A stretch of 41,297 nucleotides of DNA from the NCBI GenBank assembly GCA_946405625.1, contig CAMJHQ010000031.1, positions 1 through 41,297 on the forward strand, given 5' to 3'. The stretch is from an uncultured Lachnospiraceae bacterium. Its GTDB lineage: Bacteria > Bacillota > Clostridia > Lachnospirales > Lachnospiraceae. This document shows, one piece after another, positions 1,237 through 10,982 of the stretch (position 1 is its first letter; the number at the start of each line of letters is the position of its first letter). The notes beneath the pieces were generated by a model. The model saw only the letters and a program-made list of their open reading frames with translations. It was not told the origin of the DNA and did not search any database. Both the position numbers and the translations under genes were made by a program.

Positions 1237-1848
1237 ATGAATCATAATTTTGAAGGTGAAGATAAAAATCTGATGTGGGAAGAAGTCAGTACCGAACATA
1301 TAGTTCAGGATGAATGGATAGATTTCAGGAAGACTTCATTCAGATTTCCGGATGGGAAAATATTCGAGCCGTATTATACATATAGCAGAAGGGATTATGT
1401 AGTTATAGTAGCCTCTGATGAAGAAGGAAAATATCTATGCGTGAGACAGTTCAGGCAGGGAATCCGGGAGGTTACTACAGAATTCGTGGCAGGCGGAATA
1501 GAACGAAAAGACGGAATGCAGTTTGGGGATAAAGGCGGTCATGCTTTCGATGATTCACTCGAAGCTGCACTTGAAGCTGCGAAAAGAGAACTGCTTGAAG
1601 AAACGGGATATGAATCGGATGATTGGAAGCATCTGATGACCATACCTTCAAATGCTACGATGGCTGACAATATGGCATACATTTATGTGGCAAAAAATTG
1701 TCGGAAGAAGTCGGAACAATCACTTGATGAGATGGAATTTCTGAATGTGAAAAGGCTCACAGCAGCCGAGATTGAACAGATGATTTCGGACGGAGAGTTT
1801 AAACAGGCAATGCATGTTATGGCATGGCTGCTGGCGTTGAGACAATAA
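1237..1848 (+). CDS. NUDIX hydrolase, ADP-ribose pyrophosphatase-like
   Basis: 203 residues. The NUDIX helix is clear as EAALEAAKRELLEETGY (E, seven residues, RE..EE.G), the Mg-binding catalytic motif. The first Gly of the classical box is replaced by Ala and is preceded by an insertion of about 15 residues (KDGMQFGDKGG region) between the GG of the preceding strand and the helix. The upstream part (VVIVASDEEGKYLCVRQFRQG, then a TTEFVAGGIE segment) matches the ADP-sugar pyrophosphatase subgroup, where the conserved QFR lies on the substrate side. Likely hydrolyses ADP-ribose or a related nucleoside diphosphate. Starts 27 bp after deoB behind AAGGAAG, so probably the same transcript. Substrate cannot be fixed from sequence. 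Confidence 0.88.
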   Translation: MNHNFEGEDKNLMWEEVSTEHIVQDEWIDFRKTSFRFPDGKIFEPYYTYSRRDYVVIVASDEEGKYLCVRQFRQGIREVTTEFVAGGIERKDGMQFGDKGGHAFDDSLEAALEAAKRELLEETGYESDDWKHLMTIPSNATMADNMAYIYVAKNCRKKSEQSLDEMEFLNVKRLTAAEIEQMISDGEFKQAMHVMAWLLALRQ

Positions 1849-1934
1849 ATGTTCCGCCGGAGATATAACTTATCTCGAAAAGCGTATGACCATCTTTCTT
1901 TGGCAGAAGTTATGACACAAAATATAAAGGATAA

Positions 1935-2492
1935 GTGCAGAGTATAATGAAAAAGATATATTTTACCAGACATGGCGAAACATTCTGGAATGTAGAAAAT
2001 AAGATATGCGGTGCGACTGATATCGGTCTTACGGATCGAGGCCATGAACAGGCGGTCGAACTTGGAAAGCATATAAAGGATTTGATCGATGCGAAGAAAA
2101 TCCATATTGATGAGATCGTTGCTTCACCGCTTTCAAGGGCATATGATACGGCACAGCATATAGCTGATGTGACGGGAATTCCCATCAGAGCTGATGAACG
2201 TTTGAGAGAACAGAATTTTGGTAAATATGAGGGTACACCGCGTAACGGTGAAGTATTTAAGCTGGATAAAAGGAATTTTGTAAATTCTTATGAAGGCGGC
2301 GAATCTATGCTGCGATTGGCTCAAAGAATATATAATCTGCTGGATGAACTGGCACAGGATGATAAGATATATCTTCTTGTTGCACATAATGGAATAGTGA
2401 GATGTGTGAATTCATATTTCAATGATATGACGAATGAAGACTATGGCAATTTCGGAATCAAGAATTGTGAGCTTGTCGAATATGAATTGTAA
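1935..2492 (+). CDS. Histidine phosphatase family protein (phosphoglycerate mutase-like)
   Basis: About 185 residues. The phospho-accepting motif TRHGETFWN lies at the N-terminus, the middle Arg is in SPLSRAYDTA, and the second catalytic His is in VAHNGIVR, all as in the two-His phosphatase branch 1 fold. Probably a small-molecule phosphatase (cobalamin-pathway, sugar phosphate or broad-range type) rather than glycolytic mutase, given its small size. The frame opens at a GTG (1935) four bases after AAAGG; an ATG at 1947 gives the more usual N-terminus MKKIYFTRHGE but a 16-base spacing, so the start is uncertain. It follows the NUDIX gene by 86 bp. Confidence 0.88.
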   Translation: MQSIMKKIYFTRHGETFWNVENKICGATDIGLTDRGHEQAVELGKHIKDLIDAKKIHIDEIVASPLSRAYDTAQHIADVTGIPIRADERLREQNFGKYEGTPRNGEVFKLDKRNFVNSYEGGESMLRLAQRIYNLLDELAQDDKIYLLVAHNGIVRCVNSYFNDMTNEDYGNFGIKNCELVEYEL

Positions 2493-2503
2493 CAGCATGC
2501 GTT

Positions 2504-2539
2504 CATGAGTATGCAGCGAAGCGGAATTCGAATGTCCGC
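2504..2539 (+). repeat. Dispersed REP-like repeat, copy 1
   Basis: A 36-bp stretch (core GCAGCGAAGCGGAATTCG) recurs at 3049-3084 with about 30 of 36 identities, sharing the order CATGAG-ATG-AGCGAAGCG-AAT-CGAATG. It is directly followed by a copy of a 16-mer (2530-2545, GAATGTCCGCTTTACA) that also forms the tandem array at 6454-6517. The two copies flank the leader region of the RtcB operon. No coding capacity; function unknown. Confidence 0.6.
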
Positions 2540-2655
2540 TTTACATTCATGTTCCGGTACAGGGATGCTGAAATTCCGAAGAATTGTTCATGGTATTTTT
2601 TGAGAACGGATATTGAATTATTTGAGAAACGGATATTGAAATATTTGTGAAATGA

Positions 2656-2684
2656 TTGACATGGATATGGTTTTGCGATATATT
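2656..2684 (+). promoter_or_regulatory. Strong sigma-A promoter of the RtcB operon leader
   Basis: TTGACA at 2656-2661 and TATATT at 2679-2684 with exactly 17 bases between. This is the best consensus -35/-10 pair I found in the window. Transcription would start near 2691. Reading downstream there is a GAGAC/GTCTC hairpin (2696-2713), a strong AAGGAGG site with a short ORF, long inverted repeats, and then the Cys-rich protein and RtcB. The leader would be about 455 nt before the first substantial gene. Confidence 0.72.
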
Positions 2685-2749
2685 CCGTAATTGTTGAGAC
2701 GAGCACGGGTCTCTATGTAACTATTAACCCCGGGACAAAAGGAGGACAA

Positions 2750-2824
2750 AATGCGAACACTTAAAATTAATAACAGAATAATAACAGCAGAGGCAGCAGT
2801 TGTCCTTGGTGTGTCATTGGAATA
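2750..2824 (+). CDS. Possible 24-residue leader peptide ORF
   Basis: ATG at 2750 follows AAAGGAGGACAAA, one of the best ribosome sites in the window, and the frame stops at TAG after 24 codons. The peptide begins MRTLKINNR and ends VVLGVSLE; the ITAEAAVVLGVS part faintly recalls an excisionase-type helix-turn-helix, so a decayed gene remnant is possible. Two hairpins follow (GCACC/GGTGC at 2864-2879 and GCAGC/GCTGC just after) and then another AAAGGAGG at 2895-2902 with no useful ORF. A translated leader peptide controlling downstream genes is conceivable; I have no homologue in mind. Confidence 0.35.
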
Positions 2825-2920
2825 GTTTAGGGACTTTTTAATTTCATATTTTAGGATAACAGCACCTCTTTTGGTGCAGCATAAAAGCTGCGTCAAAGGA
2901 GGTTTTTTGCGTGTAATTGA

Positions 2921-3038
2921 GCCAAGGTCTCATATGCGGAGCATATGTATGATAAATACATATGTTCGCATGCTTGCATGCCAGAACATTATGTATTTAT
3001 TCATACATATCTGCCTTTGGCAGATATGAGACTTTGGC
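2921..3038. repeat. Very long imperfect inverted repeat in the RtcB operon leader
   Basis: The outer arm GCCAAGGTCTCATAT (2921-2935) pairs with 3024-3038 with a single G-T wobble. The inner arm 2942-2967 pairs almost fully with 2984-3010, and the tip is GCATGC-TT-GCATGC (2968-2981). The 3' side carries an extra small CTGCC-TTT-GGCAG hairpin. Over 40 base pairs can form, giving a cruciform in DNA or a long rod in RNA. The inner arm is itself palindromic (CATATGTAT/ATACATATG). Short overlapping frames inside it are artefacts of the repeat. It could be a mobile palindromic element or a functional leader structure. Confidence 0.75.
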
Positions 3039-3039
3039 G

Positions 3040-3118
3040 AGATCGCGACATGAGCATGAAGCGAAGCGAAATGCGAATGCTCGATTTATACATATGTTCG
3101 CATGCTCGATCTGCGATC
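3040..3118 (+). other. Second structured hairpin in the RtcB leader
   Basis: AGATCGC near 3040 pairs with GCGATCT ending at 3118, and inside it GAGCAT (3052-3057) can pair with a downstream ATGCTC. The element contains REP-like copy 2 (3049-3084) and a direct repeat of ACATATGTTCGCATGCT that also occurs in the preceding inverted repeat. It ends about 28 bases before the start of the Cys-rich ORF, so folding could influence translation or processing of the operon messenger. Confidence 0.5.
3049..3084 (+). repeat. Dispersed REP-like repeat, copy 2
   Basis: Second copy of the 36-bp element at 2504-2539 (core GAAGCGAAGCGAAATGCG), with changes that create a better GAGCAT/ATGCTC hairpin here. Together the two copies bracket the leader of the RtcB operon. 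Confidence 0.6.
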
Positions 3119-3352: not shown

Positions 3353-4513
3353 ATGATTACTATATACGGAAAATATACAAATGCTATCGTTTACACGGTA
3401 GAAAATGAGCTTTATGCTCTTGAGGAACATGCTCGTAAACAGCTTCAGATGATATGCAATCATCCAAGCTCGGAGGGCAGTATGATAAGGGTAATGCCGG
3501 ATGTTCATCCGGGAAAAGTCGGAACAATCGGCCTTACAATGACAGTCGGAGATTCGATTCTGCCAAGTCTTGTCGGAGTTGATATAGGCTGCGGAATGAC
3601 TATGGCTCGGATTAAGACAAAGGGACTTCAGTTTCAGCAGCTTGACACTGTTATCAGAGAAAATGTACCGGTTGGACCGAGAATCAGAGCAAAACAGCAT
3701 AAGTTTGCCGACAGGATCGATCTGTCACAGCTGAGATGTGCGAAAGGAATAAATGCCGTAAAAGCAAGCAGGAGTATAGGTACACTTGGCGGAGGAAATC
3801 ATTTCATTGAGGTTGATAAGGATGAAGAGGGAAATGTATATCTCGTTATTCATTCGGGCAGCAGGCATCTTGGAATGGAGGTTGCGGATTATTATCTGAG
3901 AACAGGTCAGAAGGAAATGCAGATGAAGAAGGAGGGATATGCTTCTTACGAGATGACATGCCTGTCAGGGCAGCTTATGGAGGATTATCTTCATGATCTT
4001 CTCGTTATTCAGGAATTTGCAAGGCTCAATCGGGATGCAATCGTAGATTCAATAGTTAACGGAATGAAGTGGAAGATTGAAGAAAGTTTTACATGTATTC
4101 ATAATTATGTGGATTTTTCAGATGTAAAGCCGGGTCAGGATGACGGAGCAAGGCCTATCCTCAGGAAGGGAGCGATCAGTGCTAAGAAAGGTGAGAATGT
4201 GATCATCCCGATCAACATGAGAGACGGAATAATCCTTGGAACAGGTCTTGGAAATCCGGACTGGAACTGTTCGGCGCCGCACGGAGCCGGAAGAATCTAT
4301 AAGCGTTCAGAGGTTGCCGAACATCATACAGTATCTGACTTTAAGAAAGCAATGGATGGAATATACTCAATATGCATAAACAAGGATACGCTGGATGAGA
4401 GCCCATTTGCTTACAGAGGAGTGGATGATATAGCTGAAGTTATCATAGATACGGTAAAAATCGATAAGATAATTAAGCCTGTTTACAATTATAAAGCCGG
4501 CGGAGTGAATTGA
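3353..4513 (+). CDS. rtcB: RNA ligase RtcB
   Basis: 386 residues. RtcB joins RNA 2',3'-cyclic phosphate or 3'-phosphate ends to 5'-OH ends using GTP and Mn, and serves in repair of cleaved tRNA/rRNA and other RNAs. Visible signatures: metal Cys in VGVDIGCGM (C80), GGGNHFIE (N149, H150), HSGSRHLG (H167), HNYV (H250), and the guanylated His in SAPHGAGR (H310). It is a little shorter than the E. coli protein (408), typical of the short bacterial subgroup. The start follows GAGGG. No RtcA, archease or RtcR-type sigma-54 regulator is nearby; control may lie in the structured leader. A candidate tRNA-like RNA pair sits about 4.2 kb downstream. Confidence 0.96.
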   Translation: MITIYGKYTNAIVYTVENELYALEEHARKQLQMICNHPSSEGSMIRVMPDVHPGKVGTIGLTMTVGDSILPSLVGVDIGCGMTMARIKTKGLQFQQLDTVIRENVPVGPRIRAKQHKFADRIDLSQLRCAKGINAVKASRSIGTLGGGNHFIEVDKDEEGNVYLVIHSGSRHLGMEVADYYLRTGQKEMQMKKEGYASYEMTCLSGQLMEDYLHDLLVIQEFARLNRDAIVDSIVNGMKWKIEESFTCIHNYVDFSDVKPGQDDGARPILRKGAISAKKGENVIIPINMRDGIILGTGLGNPDWNCSAPHGAGRIYKRSEVAEHHTVSDFKKAMDGIYSICINKDTLDESPFAYRGVDDIAEVIIDTVKIDKIIKPVYNYKAGGVN

Positions 4514-4623
4514 GAGAATATATTTATGATATCAGAGTGAGATTGCTGAAAATTTTATATCAATATTCTGCAATAAACATAAAGATTCTTGACTAAGATT
4601 AAATTTCACACAAAAAACAGTCG

Positions 4624-4650
4624 CCAAATACCCTGCTGATTTGGTATAAT
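4624..4650 (+). promoter_or_regulatory. Extended -10 promoter with inverted repeat
   Basis: TGGTATAAT at 4642-4650 is an extended -10 element; no convincing -35 is seen at the expected distance. CCAAAT (4624-4629) and ATTTGG (4639-4644) form a 6-bp inverted repeat abutting and overlapping the extended -10, a plausible operator. It would drive the GGDEF-EAL gene starting at 4723. Confidence 0.5.
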
Positions 4651-4722
4651 ATAAAAGCAGTTGAGTATTAGTTTTTATGCGGTTTAGAATATTGCAGCGA
4701 AAATATTCAGAAGGGTGGTAGG

Positions 4723-6402
4723 ATGGTAGATATTGAAAGGTATAACTCTTTTCTGGAACGCCTTGTGCGAATTACCCATGAAGAGCCCTATAATCGAAAT
4801 AGCTATTTAGAACTCATTACTGAAATGTGTAAAGAATATAGACTTGCTAAGGGAGTTACACGTTTTTATCAGACGCCTATGATGGAAACAAGGGGATTAG
4901 GCGACAGTTTTTGTGATTTTGATAATGGCAAAGCAGAGAAAATTCTGCTTAATATCCGAATTGAAACTCAGACCAAGGCAATCATTGTAGGCACGGTTTA
5001 TGGTGAGGCTGAGGAAGAAGAGCGTACAGAGGAAGAGTTGGTACAGCTTGATACCCTGTACAGAATTATTCTGGGATTTGTGAGTCGAAGAAGGCTTTTG
5101 AACAAGCTGGAAGAGTTTGGTTTCTATGATCTTGACGGATATAGAAATTTCCGATCTTTTGCACGTTTTCTGGATATCGCGAATTCTGAGAACAGATTGG
5201 GTGGGATGATCACATTTCACTTTGATCTTCGCAATTTCACAATGGTTAATCGTGAGATAGGAAGAGCAAACGGAGATACAGTTCTTCGCAGATATTATGA
5301 TATGTTACAAGAAGCCATGGGCAGTAATGGAATTATATCACGTCTTGGCGGAGATAAGTTTGTCGGTGCATTTGACAGAGAAGTCAAGAGAAGAGTGTAT
5401 GAGATTTTTTCCGGAGCACCGGTAGCATATGATGATGCGGGCGAAAAGAAGATTAATGTAGCTGCAGCGGTGGGTGTATATATGCTTCCGAATCCTTTCA
5501 TGATGAAGTCATACGGCGATATCATGGATAAGATCATGATTGCCGGCGAATCTGCCAAAAGGCAGGCATCATCAGTTCCGGTAATCTATGATGACAAGAT
5601 GAAGATGGCGAAGGCCCATGTGAAGCAGGTTCAGAATGAATTCAGAGCTGCACTTGAAAATGAGGAATTTGCTGTATATTATCAGCCGAAGGTTGATATA
5701 GAGACAGGTAAACTTGTGGGCGCTGAAGCACTTTGCAGATGGATCAAGGAGCGTGAGATTGTTCCGCCGATGGATTTTATTCCTATTCTTGAAATGAATA
5801 CGGACATCTGTGATCTGGATTTTTATATGCTTGACCATGTTTGTGCTGATATCAGAAGGTGGCTGGATCAAGGACGTGAAGCAGTTCGTGTTTCGGTTAA
5901 TTTCTCCAGAAAGCATCTGGTTGATATAGATCTTCTCGATAAGATCATCCGTGTTGTCGATAAGCATAAGGTACCTCATGAATATATTGAGATTGAGCTT
6001 ACCGAGACGACGACAGATGTTCTCTTCCGTGATCTGAAGCGTGTTGTATGCGGACTTCAGGAACAGGGAATATGGACGGCAGTAGATGATTTCGGTATCG
6101 GATATTCATCACTCAATCTTATCAGAGATATTCCATGGAATGTGCTGAAGGTTGATAAGAGCTTTGTTCCGAAGAATAACGAAGATCAGGACAACATATC
6201 CAATAAAATGTTTAAGCATGTTATCATGCTTGCACATGATATCGGTCTTGAATGTGTTATCGAGGGCGTTGAAAGTATAGATCAGCTTGAAGTGCTGAGA
6301 CAGAACAATTGTAATATTGCTCAGGGCTATTTCTTTGACAGACCTCTTCCACTGGAAGACTTCGAAGAGAGGATTGATCGGAAGATTTATCCGGGATATT
6401 AA
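4723..6402 (+). CDS. GGDEF-EAL protein, probable c-di-GMP phosphodiesterase with degenerate cyclase domain
   Basis: 559 residues, soluble, no membrane segment. Residues 1-130 resemble a small sensory region; 150-290 are a GGDEF domain whose signature reads GGDKF (209-213), so the Glu needed for cyclase activity is Lys; 300-555 are an EAL domain with QPKVD, GAEALCRW (EAL at 335-337), VNFS, ELTET, AVDDFGIGYSS, DKSF, EGVE and QGYFF all intact. The likely activity is hydrolysis of cyclic di-GMP to pGpG, with the GGDEF part acting as a GTP- or c-di-GMP-sensing module. The ribosome site is AAGGGTGG. Monocistronic: its own promoter upstream and a strong terminator downstream. Confidence 0.93.
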   Translation: MVDIERYNSFLERLVRITHEEPYNRNSYLELITEMCKEYRLAKGVTRFYQTPMMETRGLGDSFCDFDNGKAEKILLNIRIETQTKAIIVGTVYGEAEEEERTEEELVQLDTLYRIILGFVSRRRLLNKLEEFGFYDLDGYRNFRSFARFLDIANSENRLGGMITFHFDLRNFTMVNREIGRANGDTVLRRYYDMLQEAMGSNGIISRLGGDKFVGAFDREVKRRVYEIFSGAPVAYDDAGEKKINVAAAVGVYMLPNPFMMKSYGDIMDKIMIAGESAKRQASSVPVIYDDKMKMAKAHVKQVQNEFRAALENEEFAVYYQPKVDIETGKLVGAEALCRWIKEREIVPPMDFIPILEMNTDICDLDFYMLDHVCADIRRWLDQGREAVRVSVNFSRKHLVDIDLLDKIIRVVDKHKVPHEYIEIELTETTTDVLFRDLKRVVCGLQEQGIWTAVDDFGIGYSSLNLIRDIPWNVLKVDKSFVPKNNEDQDNISNKMFKHVIMLAHDIGLECVIEGVESIDQLEVLRQNNCNIAQGYFFDRPLPLEDFEERIDRKIYPGY

Positions 6403-8140: not shown

Positions 8141-8302
8141 ATGTTTTTGAGGAATAATATGTTAAAGATCAGAGAACAAGTAAATGCATCTTTCTGCTAT
8201 ATAGCTGTAGCTGAGGATGCAAATAGCAAAACGGTATATAATTTTGGGGCTTCAGAGTAGTATCAGGTGATCTCCTCTTTGAAGCCGGAACAGGAGGAAA
8301 CG

Positions 8303-8557
8303 ATGGATATGATACCGATGATAGACACCGTAGGTACAGGTAGAAATATCATAATCCTACGTAAGAGAGCAGGTCTCACAGTAGCGGATCTGCAAGACAT
8401 TTTCGGATTTACCACTCCACAGGCTATTTACAAGTGGCAGCGTGGTGCGGCACTTCCGACCATCGATAATCTGGTAGTTCTTGCTGCAGCATTTGGAGTG
8501 ACAATGGATGATATAATAGTGATCGACCATGGAAATGCAGCTTGCATGACAGCTTAA
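8303..8557 (+). CDS. Small XRE-family transcriptional regulator
   Basis: 84 residues from the ATG at 8303, which follows CAGGAGGAAACG; the longer frame from 8267 has no better site. A single helix-turn-helix covers roughly residues 12-65 (GRNIIILRKRAGLTVADLQD, then PQAIYKWQRGAALPTIDNLVVLA), followed by AFGVTMDDII. The MIPMIDTVGTGRNI opening is typical of a common Lachnospiraceae XRE group that lacks any effector domain. It sits between the structured ncRNA and the tRNA-like RNA pair; a TATAAT at 8237-8242 may be its -10. Its targets are unknown. Confidence 0.88.
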   Translation: MDMIPMIDTVGTGRNIIILRKRAGLTVADLQDIFGFTTPQAIYKWQRGAALPTIDNLVVLAAAFGVTMDDIIVIDHGNAACMTA

Positions 8558-8612
8558 GTCGAGGGTATAATTATTCCGTGATATGCACGGATATTACTTA
8601 AAAATATTGTGT

Positions 8613-8641
8613 TTCAATATGAATAAGATGATTCATATGAA
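8613..8641. repeat. Inverted repeat upstream of the tRNA-like RNA locus
   Basis: TTCAATATGAAT (8613-8624) and ATTCATATGAA (8631-8641) are complementary over 11 bp with one bulged A and a 6-base loop. It ends 27 bases before the first RNA hairpin, so it may be an operator or part of the promoter region. I could not find a confident -35/-10 pair here; TTGTGT at 8607-8612 is a weak -35 candidate. Confidence 0.5.
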
Positions 8642-8667
8642 GCAGATAAACAAAATTCGTCATTTAA

Positions 8668-8788
8668 TCGGCAGCTAGTCAGATTTACTTCATTTTAGGG
8701 TGGCGGTTGCGGGTTCGAGTCCCGTCGGCTGTTTCGGCAGCCGTAGCTCAATTGGTAGAGCACCAAGCGAATCTGATAATATCGCCGA
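8668..8788 (+). ncRNA. Y-RNA-like transcript with circularly permuted tRNA module
   Basis: Outer stem 8668-8672/8784-8788 (TCGGC/GCCGA), asymmetric internal loop AGCTA (8673-8677) against AATATC (8778-8783), inner stem 8678-8685/8770-8777 (GTCAGATT/AATCTGAT). The inside is a tRNA body in permuted order: T-arm GCGGG-TTCGAGT-CCCGT (8709-8725), 3' acceptor strand 8726-8732, UUCG loop 8733-8736, 5' acceptor strand 8737-8743, TA (positions 8-9), D-arm GCTC-AATTGGTA-GAGC (8746-8761). The residues for tRNA tertiary contacts (U8, A14, G18G19, A21, U54U55C56, A58) are present. TGG (8701-8703) pairs with CCA (8763-8765) where an anticodon stem would begin. There is no free acceptor end and no anticodon arm, so it cannot be an ordinary tRNA. 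Y RNAs of bacteria carry tRNA-like modules; this fits that idea. Confidence 0.85.
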
Positions 8789-8794
8789 AGAAAA

Positions 8795-8858
8795 TGATAG
8801 CTAGTCGGATTTACTTCATGTAGACTGTTAATCTAATAAAAATCCGACGATACCATCA
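8795..8858 (+). ncRNA. Second Y-RNA-like hairpin with tRNA-Asn-like anticodon loop
   Basis: Same chassis as the preceding RNA: outer stem TGAT (8795-8798)/ATCA (8855-8858), internal loop AGCTA (8799-8803) against GATACC (8849-8854), inner stem GTCGGATTT (8804-8812)/AAATCCGAC (8840-8848). The stems differ from copy 1 by compensatory changes (A-U to G-C in the inner stem, a wholly different outer stem), while AGCTA and the following TTTACTTCAT are identical. The apical part contains TAGA-CTGTTAA-TCTA (8821-8835), a 7-base loop with U33, GUU at 34-36 and A37, matching a tRNA-Asn anticodon stem-loop. It is followed immediately by an intrinsic terminator. Confidence 0.75.
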
Positions 8859-8861
8859 ATT

Positions 8862-8895
8862 ATGTACATGCAGCTTCGGCGGCATGTACATTTTT
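8862..8895 (+). terminator. Intrinsic terminator after the tRNA-like RNA pair
   Basis: ATGTACATGC (8862-8871) pairs with GCATGTACAT (8882-8891), with an inner GC-TTCG-GC tip and a run of T at 8891-8895. It separates the small RNAs from the TerD-like gene, as expected for independent short transcripts. Confidence 0.9.
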
Positions 8896-8936
8896 AACAG
8901 AGTGCCGACGGTTTCCGGCGGCAAAATGAGGATAAG

Positions 8937-10982
8937 ATGATGAAGAAAATATATATTGATTACTTATTTGAAAAGCATTTAATGGTTTCGGAAGGTGAAG
9001 AGAGCAAGAATCCTCTGGAGACTCTCTTTGCGCTTGCGAACCTGTTCAATATCAGAATAGTTAAAGGCGACAAGCTGGTCCGCGACTATATGATAAGAAT
9101 TGCGGCAGATCAGCTCGGAGAGAATGTTCCGGAGCCTTTTTACAGGGGATTTCCGCAGTCGGTAAGACAGCTTACATCCGATCAGCTGCTGTTTGATCAG
9201 ATGATCCATTATATAACAACATACGGACTCGGAAACTTCTCGGAAGCCGGACATTCACTTTTTGAAGAGCAGTTCGAAAGAACAGCATTTAAGGAAGGCG
9301 CTGACATCAAGGAGTTTACCATTGTTACAAAAGAGGAAGCAGAGGCAATTCTCAGTGAGTCGGTAAATAACCTTCTGGCGGGTACAAGACCTCTCAGCGA
9401 TGAGCAGTATGAACTGGTAAAAACATATATCATAGATTACGGATTTAATGCAGAGTATATAGCATCGAAGAACACATGCGTACGTCTGCTTATGGATACA
9501 CATATTCTCGCAATCGCGGATTATATGGTTCTTTCGGACGTTATCCGACTGGTTGATGAGATCAATTACAGGGAATATGCAAATACAAATCTGAAGAAGC
9601 TCAATCTGAAGAATCAGACAAGAAAGTTTATAACTCAGGTTATTAATAGAATGTTTGAGACAGGCAGAGTTGATATAAGAAACTGCTTCGAGAAGAAGAA
9701 GCTCTGGAACGGACTGTTACATCATATACATTATAAGGCAGTTTCGGAGGAGGCGCAGAAGTTTGTCGATGCCATGAGAGGCAAAGTGAATGATTCTGTA
9801 TATTCAGAGTTTGAGAGACATATGACAGCTAAGAACATCAGGGCAGCGATTGATACGCTCAAGTCCGGTAAGGGTTCTGCAGCTGTGATCAGAAAGCTCA
9901 ATTATATGATAAGCAGATGCGGATCGCTTGAGGATTTGCAGTATATCTGCAGCAACATTGATACAAAGAATGTTATCGTACTCATCCAGCTGCTTGTTGA
10001 ATATTCTATGAGGAACGGCGGAAGTGCACCGAGAAGGTTCGCTTTCACAAAGTACAACATGCTGAAGGTTCATAATGAGACACTTGAAGAGCAGAAGAAG
10101 AGAAAGTCGATGATCTCTGAGGGACAGGCAGCAATGCTTGCTGATTATATCTCGGAGAATCTGAAGAAGGTACTGAAGGGGCGCCTTGGACGGGTTTATA
10201 TAGATCCGGCCATGAAGAATTATGCACTTCCGATCCAGGAGAATACTTCTCAGGGAGGTTTCGGCGTTCTTACAAGAGGCTCAAGAGTGAAGCTGCCTGA
10301 GACAAAGAAGCTTCGTGCTTTCACCTACTGGGAGAAGGTTAACGATATCGATCTTTCTGCTTTCGGAATCAACGATAAGGGCGAGAGAAGGGAGTTCTCA
10401 TGGAGAACGATGGCAGGTAATCAGTCACAGGCAATCACTTATTCAGGTGATGAGACCAGCGGATATAACGGAGGCTCTGAATATTTCGACATAGATATGG
10501 ATGAGTTCAGAAGAATGTATCCGGACCTGCAGTATATAATCTTATGCGATAATGTATATTCAGGAACCAGTTTTGCTAATTGTATATGCAAGGCAGGATA
10601 TATGACCAGGGATCTGAATGACTCGGGTGAGGTATATGAGCCTAAGACGGTAAAGACCTCTTTTGTTATCGACTGCAACAGTACATTTGCATATCTTTAC
10701 GGAATAGATCTCCGAACAAATGAGCTCATCTGGCTTAACATGGCACGTAACAGCAATGCAGCAGTTGCGGGTACAACAGACATGAGCTTCCTGACAGACT
10801 ATTTCCATGTGACTGATATCATAAATGTTTATACATTCTTTGAAATGATGGCAACTGAGCTTGTTACGGACATATCCGAAGCCGAGGTTGTTGTTACGGA
10901 TAAGGCTGTTGAATGTGGCGAGAACGTACAGGTTATAAGAGAATATGATACTGATAAGATGATTGCGATCATGAATAAATAG
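8937..10982 (+). CDS. Large helical protein with C-terminal TerD-like domain
   Basis: 681 residues, no signal or membrane segment. Residues about 1-400 look mostly helical and repeat-like (for example FYRGFPQSVRQLT at 69-81, KKLWNGLLHHIHYK at 254-267, helices at 300-360); I do not recognise a named domain and see no TROVE signature. Residues about 450-605 resemble TerD: WEKVNDIDLSAFGIND, ITYSGDETSGYNGGSEYFDI and LQYIILCDNVYSG correspond to the TerD pattern of D-D-SAF, H-GDN-G-G-GDDE and IVF-V-IY, including the acidic residues that bind Ca in that family. Start is ATG 8937 or 8940; GAGGATAAG favours the second. It directly follows the two tRNA-like RNAs, so it is the best candidate for their protein partner, by analogy with Ro60 and Y RNAs. 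That role is inference. Confidence 0.7.
   Translation: MMKKIYIDYLFEKHLMVSEGEESKNPLETLFALANLFNIRIVKGDKLVRDYMIRIAADQLGENVPEPFYRGFPQSVRQLTSDQLLFDQMIHYITTYGLGNFSEAGHSLFEEQFERTAFKEGADIKEFTIVTKEEAEAILSESVNNLLAGTRPLSDEQYELVKTYIIDYGFNAEYIASKNTCVRLLMDTHILAIADYMVLSDVIRLVDEINYREYANTNLKKLNLKNQTRKFITQVINRMFETGRVDIRNCFEKKKLWNGLLHHIHYKAVSEEAQKFVDAMRGKVNDSVYSEFERHMTAKNIRAAIDTLKSGKGSAAVIRKLNYMISRCGSLEDLQYICSNIDTKNVIVLIQLLVEYSMRNGGSAPRRFAFTKYNMLKVHNETLEEQKKRKSMISEGQAAMLADYISENLKKVLKGRLGRVYIDPAMKNYALPIQENTSQGGFGVLTRGSRVKLPETKKLRAFTYWEKVNDIDLSAFGINDKGERREFSWRTMAGNQSQAITYSGDETSGYNGGSEYFDIDMDEFRRMYPDLQYIILCDNVYSGTSFANCICKAGYMTRDLNDSGEVYEPKTVKTSFVIDCNSTFAYLYGIDLRTNELIWLNMARNSNAAVAGTTDMSFLTDYFHVTDIINVYTFFEMMATELVTDISEAEVVVTDKAVECGENVQVIREYDTDKMIAIMNK

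Follow-up and report, generated by a model that had tools for sequence, protein, structure and literature searches.

The closest described relatives of the system reported here pair a Ro60/Rsr protein (TROVE domain, PF05731) with Y RNAs. The rsr-yrlBA-rtcBA operon of Salmonella is controlled by RtcR (PMC7790460), a Y RNA tethers Rsr to PNPase in Deinococcus (PMC7790460; PMC8394870), and the Y RNA YrlA is modified by DusA and TruB (PMC8394870). We analysed 41,297 nucleotides (nt) from an uncultured Lachnospiraceae bacterium (GenBank assembly GCA_946405625.1, contig CAMJHQ010000031.1; this whole stretch is the window), where two Y-like RNAs, RNA 1 (8668–8788) and RNA 2 (8795–8858), precede the gene of a 681-amino-acid protein, P0001 (8937–10982); all window features described here lie on the + strand. 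P0001 has a predicted Ro60-like helical part and a C-terminal remainder with a TerD-like domain. We propose, with a probability of roughly three in four, that the RNAs are Y RNAs dedicated to this divergent Ro60-like protein next door, in which the TerD-like domain lies within, or displaces much of, the vWA domain. Other loci and genomes are cited by our own L and G numbers.

A sequence-only reading had described RNA 1 as a permuted tRNA body sealed by a UUCG loop and mounted on a stem, and direct inspection finds each of its elements, in that order. The outer stem (8668–8672/8784–8788) is followed by an internal loop, AGCTA (8673–8677) opposite AATATC (8778–8783), and by an inner stem (8678–8684/8771–8777; 8 base pairs (bp) if U8685–A8770 is counted), the 5′ strand of which leads into UUACUUC (8685–8691). 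The tRNA body (8709–8761) comprises the T-arm (8709–8725), the acceptor 3′ strand (8726–8732), the closing UUCG loop (8733–8736), the acceptor 5′ strand (8737–8743), U8 and A9 (8744–8745) and the D-arm (8746–8761). ARAGORN called no tRNA at RNA 1, and the Rfam YrlA model (RF02553) matched 8687–8794 with 47.1 bits (E = 1.6e-9), not reaching its gathering score of 69. Folded as a lone strand, 8668–8788 has a minimum free energy of −42.9 kcal/mol (z −2.35; 3 of 200 shuffles equal or better), in a structure that retains the stem and acceptor and misfolds the arms. RNA 2, found with stem scans and a covariance model described below, has the same stem, and a short loop replaces the tRNA body: outer stem 8795–8798/8855–8858, internal loop AGCTA (8799–8803) opposite GATACC (8849–8854), a 7-bp inner stem (8804–8810/8842–8848) and UUACUUC (8811–8817). 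Its lone fold is weak (z −1.40), and the support for RNA 2 is therefore comparative.

The structure is conserved in homologous loci. With P0001 as query we obtained 19 loci, mainly from metagenome genomes of Lachnospiraceae and Eubacterium, and 16 of them carry one to four units upstream of the P0001-type gene; no upstream unit was seen in L013, nor in L010 and L012, which have little or no upstream sequence. With MAFFT, and without fitting to a structure, we aligned sixteen units that were chosen for their tRNA body and drawn from these loci, from the window and from two other genomes; the structure was derived from the same sequences. RNAalifold predicted 29 pairs, 20 of them with changes on both sides. 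In a formal count over 28 pairs, 99.1% of cells were paired. Double changes affected 20 of these pairs, compared with 10.9 after shuffling, and none of 500 shuffles reached 20; with the partner shifted by one to three columns, 35–48% of cells stayed paired and no more than eight pairs were doubly changed. The compensatory changes looked for in homologues are present in both stems, as double changes in 5/5 outer-stem and 7/7 inner-stem pairs. Invariant letters include AGCTA, TTACTT, GGTTC.A and TAGCTCA, and G18 is found in 16/16 and G19 in 15/16 units (missing from the second unit of L001).

RNA units of this kind often adjoin this gene family. We applied a strict descriptor to 94 loci (80 with the gene): in the 5′ half an outer helix of at least 4 bp, a loop of 4–6 nt, a 7-bp helix and [AT]T[AC]CTT[CT], and in the 3′ half a loop, the helix, a 3′ loop of 4–8 nt and the outer helix. 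Near regions, made up of 900 nt on either side of the reading frame and its first 400 nt (175,955 nt in all), held 94 matches in 57 of the 80 gene-bearing loci, which are not independent, many being close relatives. The same regions gave 0–4 matches in each of ten dinucleotide shuffles and three on the antisense strand. Away from them, 28 matches fell in 1,219,361 nt, several evidently real (two in L042, others in L137, L141 and the TROVE loci L055 and L057). A relaxed scan added 12 loci (L003, L005, L015, L019, L053, L082, L117, L118, L119, L120, L134 and L151); the covariance model added L036 and L042, the gene of the latter being a remnant at a distance of about 3 kb; the strict match of L141 falls within an over-long reading frame; and units in L084 and L085 were found by eye. 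Scans, model and inspection together give 74 of the 80 loci a unit, a count in which the loci added by the relaxed scan and by eye lack a separate null. Strict and relaxed scans, the model and inspection by eye found none beside the gene in L010, L012, L013, L081, L087 and L152.

The units resemble the RNAs that stand beside TROVE genes. Three of four TROVE loci of this phylum (L055 of genome G462, L057 of G501 and L058 of G399) have YrlA matches near the gene, of 34–40 bits; because these RNAs, too, miss the gathering score, it does not discriminate here. Like YrlA, our units have a stem made from the two RNA ends, an internal loop and an optional tRNA-like body with permuted T-arm, acceptor and D-arm, which is found in RNA 1 and 15 further aligned units and is lacking in RNA 2. 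The L055 and L057 RNAs fit the strict scan, with stem ends GG/CC, the inner 7-bp helix and then UUACUUC, and by eye L058 has a similar layout with UACUUC; a closing G–C pair is also found in 65/65 strict units of the distant TerD group. RNA 2 of the window shares the sequence GACUGUUAAUC with the L055 RNA and with the first RNA of L057, in both of which it follows UUACUUC. The internal loop differs: in L055 and L057 it reads CGCCA or CGCCU and faces a pyrimidine-rich strand (CGCCA/ACCUUUUU), whereas the P0001 group has AGCUA/AUAUC and the distant TerD group mostly CUAU/GCUUU. Both kinds of protein occur in G462 and in G501, and each is accompanied by RNAs of its own. Unlike YrlA, our units adjoin a protein that is not TROVE by sequence, and there are up to six of them per gene. 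The likeness of that protein to Ro60 comes from models only. The placement in or near the Y RNA class, proposed from the sequence of RNA 1, thus stands on the sub-threshold Rfam match, the covariation and the shared layout beside TROVE genes.

Judged across the sequences, the stem is the part common to all units, and the tRNA body is not. Many units with the same stem lack that body, which makes it optional; the UUCG loop of RNA 1 varies among homologues. Both T- and D-arms are kept in the 16 aligned units, which were selected for a tRNA body; other homologous units lack one or both, some having a T-arm without a D-arm (e.g. L001 at 2446, L002 at 3936 and L008 at 740). Among strict units a T-arm was detected in 15 of 29 beside close relatives and in 3 of 65 beside distant ones, so that the suggested selection for mimicry of the tRNA elbow could explain part of the family only.

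The gene family extends to phages, in which Ro60-related or TROVE proteins have been mentioned (PMC7824862; PMC7765460). Ten named phage records match P0001, including Rhodococcus phage Weasels2, Rhodobacter phage RcXuper and Lactobacillus phage LpeD. Weasels2 has tRNA genes before the gene, three strict units and, by eye, a fourth 3′ of it, one with a tRNA body (66.9 bits with the covariance model), and RtcB about 3 kb after it. Inspection by eye of RcXuper (L085, 2128–2730) finds about four Y-like units upstream of its TerD-Ro-like gene, following a tmRNA match and amid tRNA genes. Viral contigs, some of which may be mis-sorted host DNA, contributed 58 loci, 43 of them with genes that are not exact copies; a strict match lies within about 1 kb of 32 of these 43 genes (antisense total, 2), and single genes are flanked by as many as six units (L163, L166, L176 and L191). 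That abundance, the conserved elbow of tRNA-type units, the tRNA genes near the gene in two named phages, and the published proposal that YrlA is a competitive inhibitor (PMC7790460), could all be accommodated if the tRNA-like units were decoys for tRNA-cleaving nucleases or tRNA-modifying enzymes, the protein only stabilizing them with no role in repair or decay. We regard this as rather unlikely, given that units without a tRNA body are common and that, lacking an anticodon arm, the RNAs offer an anticodon nuclease nothing to cut.

Two structure models of the protein, built from separate alignments, each return TerD, which lies at about residues 451–619 of P0001; this TerD-like domain is better supported than the Ro60-like fold. 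The sequence-only reading saw no Ro60 in the neighbourhood. By sequence this holds: P0001 has no Pfam TROVE match, the profile finds no TROVE in the window's own genome or in any of 397 genomes of its family (4 of 199 across the phylum have it), and hhalign against a TROVE alignment, a shallow one of three rows, was negative. In structure prediction, the adjacent gene gives a Ro60-like model. Ro60 entries are the sole listed structures aligned over about 300 residues in both models (290–314 residues, root-mean-square deviation 4.5–6.9 Å), and the aligned range extends to the C-terminus. By eye, the vWA metal-site signature (DxSxS) is not visible in P0001, in which YIDPAMKN stands in place of the FLDISGSM of the L057 TROVE protein. 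P0001 is also a distant sequence relative of NCBIfam NF041916 (MXAN_6230/SCO0854 family RING domain-containing protein), with 82 bits (E = 2.6e-23; cut-off 600). The same profile matches 46 of the 148 genomes in the family around G462, with up to 358 bits and none reaching 600; among the matches listed, alignments stop by position 796 of the 842 in the profile. Profiles of the close and distant protein groups align with each other at probability 100 (hhalign, E = 1e-43). A Ro60-like fold of P0001 is supported but not proven. The RNAs could be Y-like and their neighbour a helical-repeat TerD protein that acquired Y RNA binding independently of Ro60; this we consider unlikely, as the other helical matches listed are shorter, mostly about 60–160 residues, the longest being 212 at 17.7 Å and 205 at 19.6 Å.

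In the window, as at many other loci, the array immediately precedes the gene, which would also suit a cis-regulatory leader of the protein gene rather than free RNAs. Such a leader is very improbable: the array follows the gene in L040, L041, L079 and L086 and flanks it on either side in several viral contigs, units are often tandem, and in the window a terminator-like hairpin with a 10-bp stem and a T run (8862–8895) separates RNA 2 from the P0001 gene. ViennaRNA folds 8859–8900 at −16.8 kcal/mol; a consensus terminator scan did not call this hairpin, its sole site being 8575–8591.

The specificity of the tRNA-type units was assessed with R1, the covariance model of the 16 aligned units, which scores RNA 1, itself part of the alignment, at 123.5 bits and RNA 2 (8792–8862) at 42.2 bits. 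A protein alignment (A1) matches 11 of the 397 family genomes at E 0.001 or better, G282 marginally (18.4 bits). R1 exceeds 70 bits in eight family genomes, every one among these 11. For G000, G160, G002 and G092, which supplied units to R1, this holds by construction; G294 (92 bits), G175 (88), G194 (75) and G242 (72) are independent of the model. G073 and G377 (51 and 50 bits) lie at the onset of background, 282 of the 397 genomes passing E 0.001 with R1. Because only eight candidates were scored per genome, weak units may have been missed. Chance juxtaposition of the T-arm of one tRNA with the acceptor and D-arm of the next would mimic the permutation, and R1 does score tandem tRNAs up to about 50 bits (e.g. 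three tRNA-Gly in L069), with 6 of ten sampled background loci lying in tRNA clusters, but a tandem-tRNA remnant is rejected, with hardly any probability left to it, by the covariation of both enclosing helices, the 72–92 bits of units outside R1 beside the gene (L037, L036, L041 and L040) and the stem common to units without any tRNA part.

Two further settings of permuted tRNA-like RNAs emerged, at the other four of the ten sampled background loci. Burroughs and Aravind reportedly described, in 2016, RtcB together with an SPFH/Band-7 protein and a tRNA-like RNA. L070, L072 and L075 are alike in that a permuted tRNA-like RNA adjoins an RtcB gene, the next gene in L072 being Band_7; they differ from our units in that the strict stem scan is empty at all three, and these RtcB-linked RNAs are a separate system with a different stem. 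In L074, from a genome of the window's family, a permuted tRNA-like RNA (1490–1680; R1 42.6 bits) lies directly upstream of a DUF2828/DUF7788 gene (1746–3098); the two may represent a third Ro-like protein and a Y-like RNA that belongs to it.

An RtcB-family RNA ligase gene (3353–4513; 386 amino acids; Pfam RtcB, 197 bits) lies about 4 kb upstream of RNA 1. Of the 80 gene-bearing loci, seven contain RtcB homologues (the window, L003, L016, L035, L037, L040 and the phage locus L086); in L035 the homologue is directly upstream of the RNAs and in L040 directly upstream of the gene. In L003 two RtcB genes (3996–5189 and 8386–9513), 39% and 85% identical to that of the window, flank the cassette. 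A Variovorax relative has a gene annotated rtcR nearby, on the opposite strand and with three small genes between. Directly upstream of the window's RNAs, a helix-turn-helix (HTH) gene (8267–8557; Pfam HTH_3) is a possible regulator of the cassette; tblastn finds homologues upstream of it in L001, L002, L003, L015 and L016, giving six loci with the window. Between an upstream phosphatase-like gene and RtcB, positions 2930–3110 appear by eye densely palindromic and repeat-like.

Beyond structure and adjacency, every step of the mechanism is one that we infer. P0001 would bind the stem through the internal loop, the 7–8-bp helix and the UU[A/C]CUUC strand. Most probably the stem serves as the protein's handle and the outer part as interchangeable cargo (a tRNA mimic, a T-arm alone or a plain loop), which could gate the ring or tether partners such as tRNA-handling enzymes (cf. 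Rsr, Y RNA and PNPase); with interchangeable cargo, one ring could be gated or could be linked to more than one partner. Sensing of a metal or nucleotide signal may fall to the TerD-like domain, and the particle might act in the quality control or repair of RNA or tRNA, with RtcB in some genomes.

We also think it likely that bacteria and phages hold a second Ro–Y RNA branch, in which Ro60-like proteins contain TerD and come with Y RNA arrays of their own and in which the internal-loop letters mark the Ro-like protein served, and that this branch has gone unrecognised because protein and RNAs both score under library cut-offs. In the literature that our search reached, the main Y RNA surveys lying outside it, neither TerD nor the SCO0854 family (NF041916) was linked to Y RNAs. 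The role of Y RNAs is a long-standing question, and here one RNA stem is paired with a different Ro-like protein that bears a signal domain. G462 and G501, with both systems, offer a natural test of which RNA letters select the protein. A testable function would be gained for genes that the records examined here label hypothetical, cytoplasmic, TerD family or RING domain-containing protein, and the presence of several RNAs with viral copies suggests involvement in phage–host contests over RNA damage.
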